From: Pelotomaculum sp. PtaU1.Bin035
GTDB taxonomy: Bacteria; Bacillota; Desulfotomaculia; Desulfotomaculales; Pelotomaculaceae
Assembly: GCA_002067965.1 (NCBI GenBank)
Contig: MVRN01000033.1
Coordinates: 1 to 64,000 of the forward strand
Reading direction: 5' to 3'
DNA length: 64,000 nt
A program made the position numbers and the translations under genes. Under the pieces are notes generated by a model. It had not been told where the DNA came from and did not search any database. It saw nothing but the letters and a program-made list of their open reading frames with translations. Of this stretch, positions 33,324 to 41,184 are shown piece after piece. Positions within the stretch are counted from its first letter, which is position 1, and each line of letters starts with the position of its first letter.

Positions 33324-35171
33324 ATGGGAACAAAGCAAAGCTTAGAGGAAGTTTTACAAAGGATCTTTGATTTTGACTGTTTCCGCCCGGGACAAAAAGA
33401 AGTAATCGAAGCTGCTCTTGCGGGAGATGACGTGTTGGCGGTAATGCCTACCGGGAGTGGAAAATCACTGTGTTACCAGTTGCCGGCTTTGCTGCTTCCG
33501 GGCTTGACGCTGGTGGTTTCTCCCCTTGTTGCGTTGATGAAGGACCAGGTGGACAACCTTGAGGAAAGGAACTTGTTCAAGGCTACTATGCTCAATAGCC
33601 AGCTTGGTATGGAAGATTACAGGGTTAGAATGCATGGTATACGCAACAATAGTTATAAATTAATTTATGTTGCTCCGGAGCGACTGCGTAACAAGTATTT
33701 TGCCGAGTTGTTCGCTGAATTGGGAATAGACTTGCTGGTTGTGGATGAAGCCCATTGTATTTCCCAGTGGGGGCACGATTTCCGGCCGGATTACCTCCGC
33801 GTAAAGGAGTTTTACGGTCAACTGCCGCGGCGTCCCTGTATTATAGCCCTGACTGCCACAGCTACGCCGGAAGTTAAGCAGGATATTCTAAACCAGCTTG
33901 GCATTCAAGATGCCAGGATGGTACTCGCAGGCAGCGACCGGCCAAACTTGTTCATTTCTGTGAAAAGGATAGCGCGCGAACAGGAGAAGCGGGCGGCTTT
34001 GAAGGATTTTTTAAAGGAGCGGCAGGGGAGCGGAATTATTTACGCTGCTACCAGGAAAGAGAGCGAGACTGTGGCCGTATGGATACGTGATAGATTGGGT
34101 ATTCCCACAGCTTGTTACCATGCCGGGCTGACTCCTGCCGAGCGCTCCAGGGTGCAGGACGCCTTTGTCAGGGAAGAGGTAAGGGTGGTTGTCGCCACTA
34201 ATGCTTTCGGAATGGGGATAGATAAAGCTAATATACGTTACGTTATCCACTATAACCTCCCGGCGACCTTGGAAGCGTTTTACCAGGAGATCGGAAGGGC
34301 CGGGCGTGATGGCCTGCCGGCCCAATGCCTGCTGTTGTTTTCTTTAAAAGATAAGAGGCTGCAAGAATGGATCATTGATAAGGATGCTGTCACCAGTGAA
34401 GATCTAGCTTCATTTTGGCGAGCTTGCGCCAAGTATTCTGAAGGTGGACAGGCTGCTATACCGCTTGCCTGGCTGGAACGGTCCGGCCTGTCTGAAATCA
34501 AACAGCGCCTGGTTGTCAGTATGCTTGAACGGCTTCAGGCGGTTAAATTAATTGATCGTGACGGAGATTTTTTGTACTTGGAGCCGGGACCACAGCGCCC
34601 CGTGCCTGCGGCAGTGAGGGCTGCATTGCAGGAAGTGGAAAAGCGGCAGGTATACCGCAAGGATAAGTTATCCGCCATGATGAACTGGGCGAATACTACC
34701 GGTTGCAGAAGGAACCTGTTGATGGAGTACTTCGGCGAAAAACCGGAAGGCAAAACAAAACCTTGTTGCGACAGCTGTCTGGCTATAGCTGCAGGCAGGA
34801 TGGAATTTTCGCAAGAACCGTTGTTAGCGCTCGCTTGTATAGCTGAACTGCCGCGCGGAGTAGGCCGGAAGAAACTTGCCTGCATTCTCCGGGGTGTTTC
34901 TTCGGGTAATACGTCGGTTATTGGGTATGCCCATCTGAATTGTTACCGCAGCCTGGCCGGTAGGGGCGAGAAAAATGTTCTGGAAATGATCGACCGGCTC
35001 CTGGCGGACGGTTATCTTGCCTTGAATGGTACGGAGTACCCGGTGGTAGTTTTAACTAAGCAGGGTAGAGAGGCTTTGAAGAAAAGAGAACCCCTCCCAA
35101 TAGGTATAAAAATGAGTCCAAATAAAGAAGATAATATAATAATTGAATCGCTAGAACAAGACAGGGGATAA
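33324..35171 (+). CDS. recQ: ATP-dependent DNA helicase RecQ
   Basis: A 615-residue 3'-5' superfamily-2 helicase for recombination and repair. Walker A is PTGSGKS with K47; DEAH is in VVDEAHCISQWGHD; motif VI is QEIGRAGRDG near residue 320. The zinc-binding RecQ-Ct follows, with cysteines in CRRNLLMEYF and CCDSC near residues 463-490. The last 100 residues form a divergent HRDC-less or winged-helix region. ATG 33324 has CGGAGG upstream. It lies directly upstream of ku and ligD genes, which suggests a repair operon. Confidence 0.93.
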   Translation: MGTKQSLEEVLQRIFDFDCFRPGQKEVIEAALAGDDVLAVMPTGSGKSLCYQLPALLLPGLTLVVSPLVALMKDQVDNLEERNLFKATMLNSQLGMEDYRVRMHGIRNNSYKLIYVAPERLRNKYFAELFAELGIDLLVVDEAHCISQWGHDFRPDYLRVKEFYGQLPRRPCIIALTATATPEVKQDILNQLGIQDARMVLAGSDRPNLFISVKRIAREQEKRAALKDFLKERQGSGIIYAATRKESETVAVWIRDRLGIPTACYHAGLTPAERSRVQDAFVREEVRVVVATNAFGMGIDKANIRYVIHYNLPATLEAFYQEIGRAGRDGLPAQCLLLFSLKDKRLQEWIIDKDAVTSEDLASFWRACAKYSEGGQAAIPLAWLERSGLSEIKQRLVVSMLERLQAVKLIDRDGDFLYLEPGPQRPVPAAVRAALQEVEKRQVYRKDKLSAMMNWANTTGCRRNLLMEYFGEKPEGKTKPCCDSCLAIAAGRMEFSQEPLLALACIAELPRGVGRKKLACILRGVSSGNTSVIGYAHLNCYRSLAGRGEKNVLEMIDRLLADGYLALNGTEYPVVVLTKQGREALKKREPLPIGIKMSPNKEDNIIIESLEQDRG

Positions 35172-35188
35172 CATCTAAAAATTGAAAC

Positions 35189-36040
35189 GTGGTGAGAAAA
35201 ATTCGCCCAATCTGGAAAGGCGCATTAAGTTTCGGTTTGGTTTATATGCCAGTGAAACTTTATGCCGCTGCTGAACAAAAGGACATTAGATTTAATTACC
35301 TGCATGCAAAATGTAAAAATCCTGTACGGTACAAGCGTTATTGCCCATATTGCCGGTCTGAAGTCTCTATGGAGGAAATCGTTAAAGGATACGAGTATGA
35401 AAAAGGGAAATACGTCATTATTAAAGAGGAAGACCTTGAAAAGCTCTCAGAGAATGAGGGCGGCAAGAGCATAGAAATCCTGGATTTTGTTAACCTTGCG
35501 GAAATCGACCCGGTTTATTATGAAAAGGCATATTATCTGGCTCCCGGCGAGGGGGGCGCCAAGGTTTATGAACTTTTCAAAAGGGCTATAGCTGAAACCG
35601 GCAAAGTGGCAGTGGCCAGAGTGCTCATCCGCAGCCGGGAAGCTTTAGCCGCGATCAGGGTAAGCGGGAATATTCTGATTATGAGTACCATGCATTACCC
35701 GGACGAAATAAGGCAGGCCGGTGTTCTGCCGGAGTTGAATTACACAGTAAATTTGCATGAAAATGAAGTAAAAATGGCAGTTAGCCTGATTAACAGCCTG
35801 TCGGCTGAATTCCAGCCGGAGAAATATACAGACGCATACAGGAAATCCCTCATAGAGGAAATCCAGGCCAGAATAGCCGGCGAGGCTGTAGAAGTGCCTG
35901 TAAAGCCGGAAGCGGGCAAGTTTGTTGACCTAATGGAAGCGCTAAGGGCAAGCATAGAACTGGCCAGGGAAGAACGGGAGAAACAAGGGAAAACATTAAA
36001 AGAAGCTAAACCGGAAAAGGCGAAGCGAAAGACGTCTTAG
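35189..36040 (+). CDS. ku: Ku end-binding protein for non-homologous end joining
   Basis: A 283-residue bacterial Ku homolog. It forms a ring dimer on DNA ends and recruits LigD. It starts with the typical RPIWKGALSFGLVYMPVKLY and has KRYCPYC and KGYEYEKGKYVIIKEEDLE. The core ends near residue 250, and the tail is lysine-rich (EKAKRKTS), as in other bacterial Ku. GTG 35189 or the adjacent GTG 35192 is the start; no strong ribosome site is seen. Only 17 nt separate it from recQ and 5 nt from the ligase gene. Confidence 0.94.
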   Translation: MVRKIRPIWKGALSFGLVYMPVKLYAAAEQKDIRFNYLHAKCKNPVRYKRYCPYCRSEVSMEEIVKGYEYEKGKYVIIKEEDLEKLSENEGGKSIEILDFVNLAEIDPVYYEKAYYLAPGEGGAKVYELFKRAIAETGKVAVARVLIRSREALAAIRVSGNILIMSTMHYPDEIRQAGVLPELNYTVNLHENEVKMAVSLINSLSAEFQPEKYTDAYRKSLIEEIQARIAGEAVEVPVKPEAGKFVDLMEALRASIELAREEREKQGKTLKEAKPEKAKRKTS

Positions 36041-36045
36041 GGCAG

Positions 36046-37011
36046 GTGAAACTTGTTATAAAAAATGAAAAATTACCTCTATTGCGTCCAATGCTGGCGG
36101 TAAGCTCCAAGCCTTTTGACAGCGCCGGGCACCTGTACGAAATAAAGTGGGACGGTTACCGCAGCCTTGCCTATCTGGACGGCGGGACAATAATCCGTTC
36201 CCGAAATTTGATCGAGTTAAGCAGTAAATTTCCCGAACTAAGCGGATTGCATAATAAAGTAAAGCGGCATCCGGCAATTATTGATGGTGAGATAGTTGTT
36301 TTTGAAAATGGGAAGCCTTCCTTTGCCAAACTTCAGTCGGGCGGCAGGATGGACATAACTGAGCGAAATAGCCGGGTTTGCGCGTGCCCGGCTGTTTTCA
36401 TCGCTTTCGATGTACTTTTTTCTGACGGAAAGTCATTGATGGAACTGCCCCTGTTGGAAAGAAAAAAGATTCTAAATGATATGGTTACGCCCGGAGACGA
36501 CGTTTTTATATCCCAGTACATTCTTGGCGGCGGTATTGACTTTTACAATGCTTGTGCCAAAGAAGGGCTGGAGGGCGTCGTTGCCAAAAAACTGGAAAGT
36601 GTATACAAACCGGGCCGCCGTTCAGCTTACTGGAGAAAATTCAGACATACCAGGGAGGCTGACTTAATCATATGCGGCTATCAACCCGGCAGGTCCGGAC
36701 AAGGCCTTGGTTCACTCGTTCTTGGTGGAAAAAGGGAGGGGAAATTGGTTTATCAGGGTAAAGTGGGAACGGGTTTTAGTTTCCGGGAGGCTGAGGCGTT
36801 GCTCGACGGATTGCGCAAAATTGAAGTGGCGGAGGCTCCCCTGGGCGTTCCCGGGGAGGAAAGAGGACGTACGAGGTGGGTACGCCCATTATTGGTTTGT
36901 TCGGTAAATTACCTTACTACCACAGCCGACGGTTGCCTCCGCCACCCCATTTACCGGGGTATGCGCAGGGACAAGTCTCCGGGCGAATGCCCCGCTGTGA
37001 CGGAAGAGTAA
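36046..37011 (+). CDS. ligD: ATP-dependent DNA ligase, LigD ligase domain
   Basis: A 321-residue ligase consisting of only the nucleotidyltransferase and OB-fold parts of LigD. The adenylated lysine is K34 in EIKWDGYR (motif I); other motifs are IIDGEIVVF, EGLEGVVAKKLESVYKPGRR and YWRKFRHTREADLIICGY. It seals breaks held by Ku. GTG 36046 follows AGGGCAG. The polymerase part of LigD is encoded separately 1.7 kb downstream, and no phosphoesterase domain is present in the window. Confidence 0.9.
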   Translation: MKLVIKNEKLPLLRPMLAVSSKPFDSAGHLYEIKWDGYRSLAYLDGGTIIRSRNLIELSSKFPELSGLHNKVKRHPAIIDGEIVVFENGKPSFAKLQSGGRMDITERNSRVCACPAVFIAFDVLFSDGKSLMELPLLERKKILNDMVTPGDDVFISQYILGGGIDFYNACAKEGLEGVVAKKLESVYKPGRRSAYWRKFRHTREADLIICGYQPGRSGQGLGSLVLGGKREGKLVYQGKVGTGFSFREAEALLDGLRKIEVAEAPLGVPGEERGRTRWVRPLLVCSVNYLTTTADGCLRHPIYRGMRRDKSPGECPAVTEE

Positions 37012-37091
37012 AGCCGTGGAAAAAAATGAGGTACCGTTCATCCAAAGTATCAATATAATGTCATAAGAACCTTCCTTTGGGGGTATTTGAC

Positions 37092-38414
37092 ATGATCCAA
37101 TCTGCCTTCCGGAATCTGGTTGCCGGTGTTGATGCAAAAATACCGCTTCAAAATGGCAACTGGGTTACTTCAATTAATATGGATAATGCCGCCACTACAC
37201 CGCCGTTTGTTCACACTTTGCAAGAAATTGTTAATTTTGCCCCTATGTATTCCTCTATTCACCGCGGTTCAGGGTATAAGTCCCGGCTTTCAACTGAATT
37301 ATTTGAAACGTCAAGATCAATTATAGCAAACTTCGTCAAAGCGGATCCTAATCATGACACGGTAATTTTCGTAAAGAATACAACGGAGGCAATAAATAAG
37401 TTGTCTTACCGGCTTTGCGAAGGAAAAAGAAAAAATGTAATTTTGTCAACAGAAATGGAACATCACTCTAATGATCTTCCCTGGAGAAACAGGTATCATG
37501 TTGATTATGTTGAAATAGATGATGACGGGAGGCTATGCCTAGATAGCTTAGTTAATAAATTGAGTAAATATAAAAAAGCTGTAAAATTAGTAGCAGTCAC
37601 CGGGGCTTCAAATGTTACCGGTTATGTCAACCCTATTTATGAAATAGCAGAAATAACCCACAAATTTAATGCAAAAGTACTTGTCGACGGAGCTCAACTG
37701 GCCCCTCATGCTCAAATAGACATGAAGACCTTCAATTCTCCCCAACACATCGATTACCTTGCATTTTCCGGCCATAAAATGTATGCGCCTTTTGGGACAG
37801 GGGTTCTAATAGGTCCAAAAGAAACCTTTGAAAAAGGCGCCCCCGAATATGCCGGGGGCGGCACCGTACGGGCTGTTACCCGGACTAATATAATATGGGA
37901 TGACCCGCCGAATAAAGAAGAAGCGGGGACACCCAATGTGATGGGAGTACTTGGTCTACAAGCCGCGATTAAAACATTAAGCATGATTGGTATGCAGGAC
38001 ATCAGCAATTACGAATTCGGATTATGGAATTATACTGTAGAAAACTTAAAAAAAATACCCGGTCTCCGTCTTCATTGCGAAACAGATCCCGTCAAACCAA
38101 GGATAGGAGTCATCCCCTTCAACCTCGACGGAATCCACCATGCCTTGGTAGCTGATATCCTGGCTGGAGAAGCCGGCATCGCAGTCCGCAGCGGTTGTTT
38201 TTGTGCCCAGCCATATGTTAGAAAACTTTTAAAGATAGCTCCCGAAGAAACAGAAACATGTATTAAAAATCATCAATCTCTCAATCGTCCGGGCATGGTT
38301 AGGGTTAGTTTCGGGCTATATAATGACTATAATGAAATTAATGTTTTAATTCAAACCCTCTGCCGTATCGTAGAATTTAAAGACTATTACATTCAAAAAT
38401 ACATGAATGTTTAA
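37092..38414 (+). CDS. Cysteine desulfurase-like class V aminotransferase
   Basis: A 440-residue PLP enzyme of the SufS/CsdA-like group. It begins with a short extension and then NMDNAATTPPF; the PLP lysine is K229 in SGHKMYAPFGTG; the candidate catalytic cysteine is C371 in RSGCFCAQPY. Cysteine desulfurases give sulfur for Fe-S clusters or thiolation. ATG 37092 lies 8 nt after GGGGG; TTG 37077 overlaps that site. The gene is AT-richer than its neighbours and sits between the two halves of LigD, so it may have been inserted by transfer. No scaffold gene (iscU/sufU) is adjacent. Confidence 0.85.
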   Translation: MIQSAFRNLVAGVDAKIPLQNGNWVTSINMDNAATTPPFVHTLQEIVNFAPMYSSIHRGSGYKSRLSTELFETSRSIIANFVKADPNHDTVIFVKNTTEAINKLSYRLCEGKRKNVILSTEMEHHSNDLPWRNRYHVDYVEIDDDGRLCLDSLVNKLSKYKKAVKLVAVTGASNVTGYVNPIYEIAEITHKFNAKVLVDGAQLAPHAQIDMKTFNSPQHIDYLAFSGHKMYAPFGTGVLIGPKETFEKGAPEYAGGGTVRAVTRTNIIWDDPPNKEEAGTPNVMGVLGLQAAIKTLSMIGMQDISNYEFGLWNYTVENLKKIPGLRLHCETDPVKPRIGVIPFNLDGIHHALVADILAGEAGIAVRSGCFCAQPYVRKLLKIAPEETETCIKNHQSLNRPGMVRVSFGLYNDYNEINVLIQTLCRIVEFKDYYIQKYMNV

Positions 38415-38461
38415 TATGAATTTTTGTAATTTAAGACGGTTATTGTAATCAATATTATGGT

Positions 38462-38640
38462 TATATTATAAGATAGCAGTTCTCCAGTGGACGCGTCTAC
38501 GGTTATAACCATCCACTCCAGGTTTGACTCGTCCCCGCTCTGCCAGTCAAAACGCCAGGTTTTTTGGTCCTTGAGCAAATAATCTTGCTCCAGCCTGCTG
38601 TCGGTAAGGGTATAGCCTTCAGGTACTTGAAAAGAATTAA
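38462..38640 (-). pseudogene. Fragment of a PepSY/YcdB-like protein
   Basis: The minus strand reads SFQVPEGYTLTDSRLEQDY, then KTWRFDWQSGDES, then WMVITVDASTGELLSY. The W-x-F-x-W and VDAxTGEL patterns are typical of PepSY1/YcdB-type repeats of secreted Firmicutes proteins. The frame has a stop just upstream (about 38647) and no start, so only about 60 residues of a larger gene remain. It is trapped between the desulfurase-like gene and the LigD polymerase gene. Confidence 0.6.
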
Positions 38641-38731
38641 AGATTTATAGCCCGGATAAATTTTTTGTGTGTTAGCGCTTGTTATGCAAAAAACCGGGGA
38701 GACTGTAGAATTATTAAGGCAGGCGTATATT

Positions 38732-39628
38732 TTGAGAGAAAGAGTTGTAAATGTAAAAGGTTATGAAATAAAACTCACTAACCTTGATAAGGCAATGTGG
38801 CCGGAAGGACTGACTAAAGCCCATCTTATAGACTACTATAACCATATAGCGCCGTTCATTCTCCCTTATCTTTATAACCGGCCAATCGTTATGAAACGTT
38901 ATCCGGACGGCATTGAAGGTGAACAGTTCTACCAGAAGGAGTGTCCGGATTACGCTCCAGCCTGGATAAAAAGATACCCTGTGGAACATTCCGAAAAGGT
39001 TGTAAACTATATTATATGTAATGATATACAAACGCTAACTTGGATGGCGAATTGCGGTTGTATTGAGGTGCATGCCTGGCTGGCGCGGATAGAAAGCCTG
39101 GAAAGCCCGGATTTAGCTGTTATGGATCTGGATCCGGCAGAAGGGGTTCCGTTCCGCGACACTCTGGAAGTGGCCCTGCTGATCCGTAGCGCTTTGGAGG
39201 AATTCAGGCTCGCTGGTTTCCCAAAAACCTCCGGGGCTGGCGGGTTGCACCTTTTTATCCCAATCAAACCGGCTTATTCGTGGCAGGAAGTTACGGCTGC
39301 CATGAAATTTGTTGCGGAAGCGGCAGCGGGAGTGTACCCGGATAAAGCCACTATTGAAAGAAAAGTTGACAAGAGGGCAGGGAAAGTATATCTTGACTAT
39401 CTGCAAAACGGCCGGGGGAAAACGATGGCTTTTCAGTACGGGTTGCGACCTTTGCCCGGGGCTCCGGTTTCAACTCCGTTGGACTGGCGGGAGGTGGAAA
39501 GAGGAGATATTCATCCGCAAGACTTTAACATGAATACGATATTTCCCCGCCTTAAATCGCTGGGGGATATTTACATCGAGGTGCTTAAAAAGAAACAAAC
39601 CTTGGATAAATTATTGAAGATGGTTTAA
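38732..39628 (+). CDS. ligD: LigD polymerase (primase-like) domain protein
   Basis: A 298-residue archaeo-eukaryotic primase-type polymerase that fills gaps at DNA ends during NHEJ. Features: KLTNLDKAMWPEGLTKAHL at the start, FYQKECPDYAPAWI, metal-binding D132 and D134 in MDLDPAEG, SGAGGLHLFIPI with the catalytic His, and GRGKTMAFQYGLR. TTG 38732 is preferred since it has AAGGCAGG upstream and matches family starts; an in-frame GTG at 38669 would add 21 residues. It is separated from the ligase gene by another gene and a fragment. Confidence 0.88.
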   Translation: MRERVVNVKGYEIKLTNLDKAMWPEGLTKAHLIDYYNHIAPFILPYLYNRPIVMKRYPDGIEGEQFYQKECPDYAPAWIKRYPVEHSEKVVNYIICNDIQTLTWMANCGCIEVHAWLARIESLESPDLAVMDLDPAEGVPFRDTLEVALLIRSALEEFRLAGFPKTSGAGGLHLFIPIKPAYSWQEVTAAMKFVAEAAAGVYPDKATIERKVDKRAGKVYLDYLQNGRGKTMAFQYGLRPLPGAPVSTPLDWREVERGDIHPQDFNMNTIFPRLKSLGDIYIEVLKKKQTLDKLLKMV

Positions 39629-39846: not shown

Positions 39847-40158
39847 TTTTATTTACCACCTTAAGTTTCGCCGGTAAAATTAAACACAGCTTTAACCACG
39901 CCACTTTTCCTAATACACATATTATTAGTACAATAATTATACACAAGCTATCAGTAACATAACATGTCCAGTATATTCCGTCAAGCTACCGTATACCGGA
40001 TAATAATAACAACTCCTGATCCAACTTTGCTAATCAACAGTCAACAGATTGTAGGACAAGGGAATAAATCCAGGAACATAGTCCTATATGAATAGCACTT
40101 AAATCCGATTTTATTTAACAATATAATACATTATTATTAAAATACAAGCATTCCTGAA

Positions 40159-40240
40159 TAAGGGCAAACTTAGTGAAAGCTATGGACGCAATGCCACGGG
40201 TCTAAGGCATTATGAGTGCTAAGACAACCGGGTTGCCAGC
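40159..40240 (+). ncRNA. Cyclic di-GMP-I (GEMM-I) riboswitch aptamer
   Basis: The sequence shows the conserved GEMM-I core in order: GGGCAAAC (40162-40169), GAAA, GGACGCAA (40184-40191), GCCACGGGTCTAAGG (about 40193-40207), and CCGGGTTGCC at the 3' end (to 40237). GAAA is the tetraloop end of P1b and GGACGCAA/ACGGGTCTAA carry the ligand site. The 3' strand GGGTTG can alternatively pair with CAACCC (40240-40245) just downstream, so ligand binding and an alternative hairpin would compete. It lies before a 73-codon membrane protein gene. Confidence 0.88.
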
Positions 40241-40281
40241 AACCCTCCGGCTTTCTCCGGTACTGAACAACCAAAGGAGGG
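40241..40281 (+). promoter_or_regulatory. Expression platform with an anti-ribosome-site sequence
   Basis: CCCTCC (40243-40248) is the exact complement of the ribosome site GGAGGG (40276-40281). CAACCC overlaps it and can pair with the aptamer 3' strand. When the aptamer strand is held by c-di-GMP, CCCTCC would be free to hide the ribosome site; otherwise CAACCC would be sequestered. The predicted control is translational, and the direction is inference. Confidence 0.55.
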
Positions 40282-40285
40282 ACGA

Positions 40286-40324
40286 ATGAATATATGCAAC
40301 ACGAACACAAAGTGCTTTTATTAA
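40286..40324 (+). CDS. Possible 12-codon upstream peptide
   Basis: ATG 40286 lies 4 nt after GGAGGG and reads 12 codons (MNICNTNTKCFY) to a TAA. It overlaps the start of the 73-residue gene in another frame. It may be a chance frame or a coupling peptide. Confidence 0.25.
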   Translation: MNICNTNTKCFY

Positions 40325-40515
40325 GAATTTTTTATGCATTTACTTTACTTCTGGTTTGTTTATTAATGCTTATGATTTGCCCAAATGCGTCAATGCTTGC
40401 TGCCGGGGTAGCCCTTTACCTGCTGATGGGTTTTGATGATTCTAATGCTGAGTTCAGATCTGCCGCTGATGACCGGGAGCGGGGAGTTATAGTTTTAAAA
40501 CGACAAAGGGAATAA
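40294..40515 (+). CDS. Small two-helix membrane protein under a c-di-GMP riboswitch
   Basis: A 73-residue protein with two hydrophobic stretches, LLLRIFYAFTLLLVCLLML (residues 8-27) and SMLAAGVALYLLMG (about 32-46), then a charged tail (DDRERGVIVLKRQRE). No family is recognised. ATG 40294 lies 12 nt after GGAGGG, a longer spacing than usual. It is the only gene between the riboswitch and a terminator, so c-di-GMP probably controls this protein alone. Genes under such riboswitches often concern motility, adhesion or the cell surface; no such role can be read here. Confidence 0.6.
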   Translation: MQHEHKVLLLRIFYAFTLLLVCLLMLMICPNASMLAAGVALYLLMGFDDSNAEFRSAADDRERGVIVLKRQRE

Positions 40516-40542: not shown

Positions 40543-40568
40543 AGACCATGGCAACGTGGTCTTTTTTA
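40543..40568 (+). terminator. Terminator after the small membrane protein gene
   Basis: AGACCA (40543-40548) and TGGTCT (40556-40561) pair, followed by a run of T. Confidence 0.8.
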
Positions 40569-40716: not shown

Positions 40717-41184
40717 ATGCCTGAACACCACCCGATTGAAGGGTTAATGAAAACAGCTATGGAAAGTATCAGGGAGATGGTGGATGTAAACACAGTTGTA
40801 GGCGATCCTGTAGAGACGCCTGATGGAACGGTAATTATCCCAATTTCTCGTGTTGCCTGCGGTCTTGTGGCTGGGGGCGGTAATTTTGAGATCGGTCAAG
40901 AACATAAACAAGGTGAGGGAGATTCGCAAACGCCCGCTTTTGGAGGAGGCAGCGGCGCGGGAGTTTCGGTAAAACCGATTGGATTTTTAGTTGTCGGTAA
41001 CGGGCAGGTGCGGATGTTGCCGGCAGAAGGAAACACGGTAGTCGACCGGTTAATTGACATAGCGCCGCAGTTGCTTGCACAAATTCAGTCTATGTTCGGG
41101 CAGAATGAATTCCAGTGGGGTACTAAAGTTAACGTTGATAAACAACCAGCGTCGACGATAACACCTACGCAACCGGTGTTATAA
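40717..41184 (+). CDS. ytfJ: Spore protein YtfJ (GerW)
   Basis: A 155-residue protein of the YtfJ/GerW family, made in the forespore and needed for normal germination in Bacillus. Motifs: HPIEGLMKTAMESIREMVDV, VVGDPVETPDGTVIIPISRV, a Gly-rich loop (GGGSGAGVSVKPIGFLVV) and a C-terminal helix (LIDIAPQLLAQIQSMF). ATG 40717 has CGGAGTGA upstream. It has its own forespore-type promoter and terminator. Confidence 0.92.
   Translation: MPEHHPIEGLMKTAMESIREMVDVNTVVGDPVETPDGTVIIPISRVACGLVAGGGNFEIGQEHKQGEGDSQTPAFGGGSGAGVSVKPIGFLVVGNGQVRMLPAEGNTVVDRLIDIAPQLLAQIQSMFGQNEFQWGTKVNVDKQPASTITPTQPVL

Follow-up and report, generated by a model that had tools for sequence, protein, structure and literature searches.

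The leader that begins at position 40153 of the 64-kb window (the whole stretch of DNA analyzed here, 64,000 nucleotides) raises the question of what a cyclic dinucleotide riboswitch would control when a single short open reading frame (ORF) follows it, and in which direction. The reading favored in this study, with a probability of roughly 0.6, is that a c-di-GMP-I riboswitch represses the translation of a monocistronic mRNA encoding a small membrane protein with two helices and that an operator lies upstream.

A covariance search with RF01051 (c-di-GMP-I, GEMM-I) matched positions 40153–40240 of the forward strand at full length (model positions 1–87), with a score of 69.8 bits against a cut-off of 35 bits and an E-value of 1.3e-11. 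No second Rfam family reached its cut-off in the 64-kb window. The search thus recovered the GEMM-I core that the preliminary description had considered clearly readable; the start given there, 40159, is within the aptamer, which begins 6 nt earlier. The aptamer is located in the 5' leader, 53 nt upstream of the ORF, and the leader allows mutually exclusive pairings. Immediately before the GC of its GGCAAAC motif is a G, as in c-di-GMP binders rather than in the 3',3'-cGAMP type, and this residue, G40163, is taken as ligand-specificity position 20. The aptamer is a typical representative of RF01051 and a predicted c-di-GMP riboswitch. At the presumed specificity position, the orthologous aptamer of Pelotomaculum terephthalicicum (L041, 3796–3879) possesses A instead of G, as do about 10 further aptamers of the family found with a simple pattern. 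The P. terephthalicicum aptamer may sense 3',3'-cGAMP or both ligands.

The gene behind the aptamer (40294–40515, forward strand) encodes a polypeptide of 73 amino acid residues. Its hydropathy profile displayed a strong first hydrophobic segment (about residues 8–30), a shorter second one (about residues 33–47) and a polar C-terminal third, from which we infer a two-helix membrane topology. The protein was without a match in Pfam, NCBIfam or PHROGs and nothing convincing was found in PDB, in agreement with the earlier statement that the controlled gene encodes an unrecognized 73-residue membrane protein. Among 60 relatives searched, three good homologs were identified (E-values of 5e-10 to 3e-9), all in a sister genus (genomes G001, G011, and G016); their loci include those of P. 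terephthalicicum JT and Pelotomaculum sp. PtaB.Bin013. A search for homologs behind other GEMM riboswitches had been suggested in the preliminary description; each of the three was directly behind its own c-di-GMP-I aptamer (81–86 bits). Recurrence in three further genomes argues that the pairing of aptamer and small protein is beyond chance. A three-sequence profile searched against 113 genomes of the order returned the same four genomes, the other matches being terminase-like or at chance level, and a class-level search that took in the same number of genomes (113) had the same outcome. The aligned orthologs share the conserved core MLAxGxALYLxMGFDDS. Between the two Pelotomaculum genes, dN was 0.27 and dS was 0.77, and the resulting dN/dS of about 0.3 is consistent with purifying selection and indicates a real gene. 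AlphaFold2 predictions from the single sequence and from the three-sequence alignment both gave one long helix, with pTM values of 0.31–0.35 that were too weak to use.

Downstream of the small gene, the terminator scan identified an intrinsic terminator (AGACCATGGCAACGTGGTCT-TTTTTA, 40543–40567, forward strand), in which a stem at 40543–40562 is followed by a T run. Because this terminator precedes ytfJ, the gene is monocistronic. Its own terminator had been predicted previously, and the monocistronic layout together with the aptamer match supports the proposal that the riboswitch is dedicated to one small membrane-protein gene. The reported adjacency to the spore gene ytfJ (Spore_YtfJ, PF09579, 95.4 bits; 40717–41184, forward strand) is correct as to position, ytfJ being beyond the terminator and outside the unit. 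That this position has a meaning is not supported: the units of Pelotomaculum are found away from ytfJ, and a link with ytfJ was rejected because the neighborhood is not conserved. The common neighbor is a class-V aminotransferase (76–78% identical), encoded 1.7 kb upstream of the unit in the window; in G001 the distance is 2.8 kb, again upstream, and the gene has the opposite orientation. The ORFs further upstream (33324–39628) were read as recQ, ku and split ligD-like genes, with a class-V aminotransferase between the separated ligase and polymerase parts.

The Shine-Dalgarno sequence GGAGGG is at 40276–40281 and its exact reverse complement, CCCTCC, is at 40243–40248 (both forward strand), as the preliminary description had noted. 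Absent from that description were an alternative hairpin, a second anti-Shine-Dalgarno sequence, an out-of-frame ATG, the upstream palindrome and the published examples of single small proteins, all of which are described below. The alternative hairpin, GGGTTG-CCAG-CAACCC (40230–40245, forward strand), was recognized from sequence, orthologs and folding, and engages the 3' strand of the aptamer's P3 helix together with the bases that follow. In the orthologs it is kept as GGGTTA-CCAG-TAACCC, with a compensating change from G-C to A-U, and its predicted pairing probability in the ligand-free window sequence was 0.59–0.62. In constrained folding, the ligand-free fold used the second, weaker anti-Shine-Dalgarno sequence TTCTCC (40253–40258, forward strand); in the aptamer-locked fold, where GGGTTG is held by the aptamer, CCCTCC was the main partner of the Shine-Dalgarno sequence. 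The ATG of the ORF itself is 12 nt beyond GGAGGG, and the out-of-frame ATG at 40286 is closer and better spaced. It opens a frame of 12 codons (MNICNTNTKCFY, 40286–40324, forward strand) that overlaps the start of the small gene and, judged from the sequence only, is a possible decoy or leader. The whole leader was no more stable than shuffled sequence (z = -0.04).

The terminator scan of the window found none at the alternative hairpin, which has no U-run behind it and whose tail is just CUUUCUCC, whereas other c-di-GMP-I switches of the same genome possess strong terminators with clear U-runs. Translational control is therefore most likely, and sequestration of the ribosome site, as proposed previously, is supported. 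The direction of control was assessed from the predicted cost of opening the Shine-Dalgarno sequence, in calculations that cover secondary structure without tertiary contacts or co-transcriptional folding. In the window, the cost was 7.6 kcal/mol with the aptamer locked vs. 5.2 kcal/mol with the alternative hairpin; the corresponding values were 7.9 and 5.3 kcal/mol for P. terephthalicicum and 6.3 and 6.1 kcal/mol for PtaB.Bin013. The costlier opening in the aptamer-locked state favors repression by c-di-GMP. The Shine-Dalgarno sequence was paired in both predicted states (unpaired probability of 0.04 free and 0.01 aptamer-locked) and the gap in PtaB.Bin013 was only 0.2 kcal/mol, so that the dynamic range and the sign are uncertain.

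An ON switch is the alternative to be weighed against these values. In such a switch, the ligand would dissolve the GGGUUR/YAACCC hairpin and so relieve the pausing, weak termination or unfavorable fold of the ribosome site that the hairpin would bring about, and c-di-GMP would raise expression. The 5' strand of the alternative hairpin is common with the aptamer, which is the usual layout of ON switches; moreover, a loosely U-rich sequence follows the hairpin in the orthologs (UAUUUCCUUUC), and the pairing of the Shine-Dalgarno sequence in the free state as well agrees with this reading. The short window tail and the lack of a terminator there speak against it, as do the proper U-runs of other switches in the same genome, and opening of the Shine-Dalgarno sequence was costlier with the aptamer locked in all three sequences, clearly in two. 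We regard an ON switch as unlikely. A translational OFF switch is the sign that the modeled folds favor, and the OFF reading is also favored by the case of Clostridioides difficile, for which repression through premature transcription termination has been described for most type I c-di-GMP switches (PMC7699646).

Two further explanations concern the protein rather than the switch. Its small size and hydrophobicity would suit the toxin of a type I toxin-antitoxin pair with the riboswitch in its regulation, given that c-di-GMP-I switches of C. difficile prophages are located at type I toxin-antitoxin pairs, where the aptamers precede the antitoxin RNAs (PMC7699646). There, however, the switch precedes the antisense RNA and not the toxin. 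A simple scan found no antisense promoter above chance at the locus, no prophage genes were noticed adjoining the small gene, and the conserved core under purifying selection and the polar C-terminal third are unlike a short toxin, which together make this identity highly improbable. An origin of the ORF by domestication of part of the large subunit of a phage terminase (the helix after Walker A), now a membrane protein, is suggested by 18 identical residues out of 41 in a terminase segment (E-value of 1e-7 for that single comparison; L046, L047), and the terminases of two genomes were the best non-orthologous matches. Once corrected for the genomes searched, this match was nevertheless borderline, the terminase profiles of PHROGs were at chance level (E-values of 0.29–0.4), the Walker A motif is absent and the Pelotomaculum orthologs are less terminase-like. 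Such an origin has hardly any probability, and identity as a terminase fragment was not supported.

Under the preferred reading, repression of translation by c-di-GMP, the 3' strand of the aptamer, GGGUUG, would pair with CAACCC just downstream when c-di-GMP is absent. The strong anti-Shine-Dalgarno sequence CCCUCC would then be occupied, the weaker one alone would contact the ribosome site, and translation would be more open. With c-di-GMP, the aptamer would hold GGGUUG; CAACCCUCC, which contains the anti-Shine-Dalgarno sequence, would be freed to pair with GGAGGG, and translation would be shut. Transcription would start just before the aptamer and would be governed by a regulator with AGGAC-N4-GTCCT as its binding site. 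Synthesis of the protein would take place at low c-di-GMP, that is, in the motile or planktonic state, and the protein may have a role in motility or in the envelope.

A consensus scan identified a promoter-like element, TTAACA-17-TAAAAT (40115–40143, forward strand; alternative -10 TATAAT at 40123–40128), whose 10 of 12 consensus matches do not exceed what the scan yields by chance and whose position is plausible. The transcript would probably begin at about 40135–40150, just before the aptamer. Upstream of this promoter is the palindrome AGGAACATAGTCCT (40072–40085) with the consensus AGGAC-N4-GTCCT, which the leader alignment showed to be conserved in the Pelotomaculum orthologs. With one mismatch at most, this motif occurs 42 times in the 2.54-Mb genome to which the window belongs; it is found no more than 81 nt upstream of three of the six c-di-GMP-I aptamers there (the other two loci being G000:C64:25694 and G000:C126:10197), with about 0.015 expected in six 150-nt stretches. 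In the family, 24 of 119 c-di-GMP-I aptamers have it within 150 nt upstream at one mismatch at most, 12 of them exactly, and removal of one near-duplicate genome leaves 19 of 110 aptamers in nine genomes. As a control, 29 other orderings of the half-sites gave 0–3 of the 119 aptamers, none exact. The motif was picked after it had been seen in the leader of the window; this choice has no bearing on the counts from other genomes. At several promoters, a TTGAC-like -35 box directly adjoins the palindrome. The string AGGAC-N4-GTCCT was not found in the literature searched. In Pelotomaculum, a further exact copy of the palindrome is just downstream of the small gene (G001:C1:58796-58809 and G011:C1:164642-164655), bordered by runs of T and A (TTTAGGACTAAAGTCCTAAAAAA).

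The palindrome is probably an operator, which a transcription factor may bind, to judge from its symmetry, spacing and position; the gene would then probably have two inputs. This factor is perhaps of the CRP/FNR type. The operator of FNR is TTGAT-N4-ATCAA, and the palindrome has in common with CRP/FNR operators two 5-bp half-sites with central GA and a 4-bp spacer; it differs from them by its half-site AGGAC. One CRP/FNR-type gene of the genome was above the Pfam cut-off (G000:C54). No palindrome at one mismatch or fewer was found beside it, so autoregulation gives no support for this candidate.

That the AGGAC-N4-GTCCT factor and c-di-GMP-I riboswitches act in series, in a two-input regulon of Pelotomaculum and its relatives that includes orphan small membrane proteins, is a tentative proposal to which we give slightly less than an even chance. 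Of the other five c-di-GMP-I switches of the genome, one precedes an flgB operon, and the rest are followed by genes for an HD-domain-like protein, for a PAS-like regulator and for a second small membrane protein and, in one case, by a contig end; in the family the downstream genes, whose translations were judged by eye, resemble flgB, HD-domain proteins, pilins, response regulators, and sigma factors. The second small membrane protein is another orphan of 73 residues (L002 in G000:C126, ORF 1630–1851), and the platform of its switch is terminator-like. Its P. terephthalicicum homolog (L190, 1483–1707) is behind a palindrome, with no c-di-GMP-I match above the cut-off. If the regulon is real, one of its targets is the 73-residue protein of the window, of which no copy without its riboswitch was found. 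The riboswitch would add a conserved and unstudied small membrane protein to what c-di-GMP controls in syntrophic Firmicutes, a group in which little is known of the targets of this messenger. The palindrome suggests that two signals control the same mRNAs, at the levels of transcription and translation.

Compared with RF01051, the aptamer of the window shows no difference of its own and shares the full covariance match and the 5' leader position. Several of its sisters in the same genome possess terminator-like platforms, whereas its own platform looks translational and is based on a three-strand exchange. Single small proteins behind c-di-GMP-I switches are already known in C. difficile, in which such switches are found before the 'small hypothetical protein' genes CD1424, CD1981.2, CD1990.3, CD2309, and CD3368.2 (PMC11477304). 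Similar to these, the window has one c-di-GMP-I switch for one short gene, a likeness of arrangement. Different from the type I switches of C. difficile, which are mostly described as acting by premature termination, the platform described here looks translational. New here are this platform, the family of the protein, the presence of a switch before it in each of the four genomes that bear it, and the palindrome.
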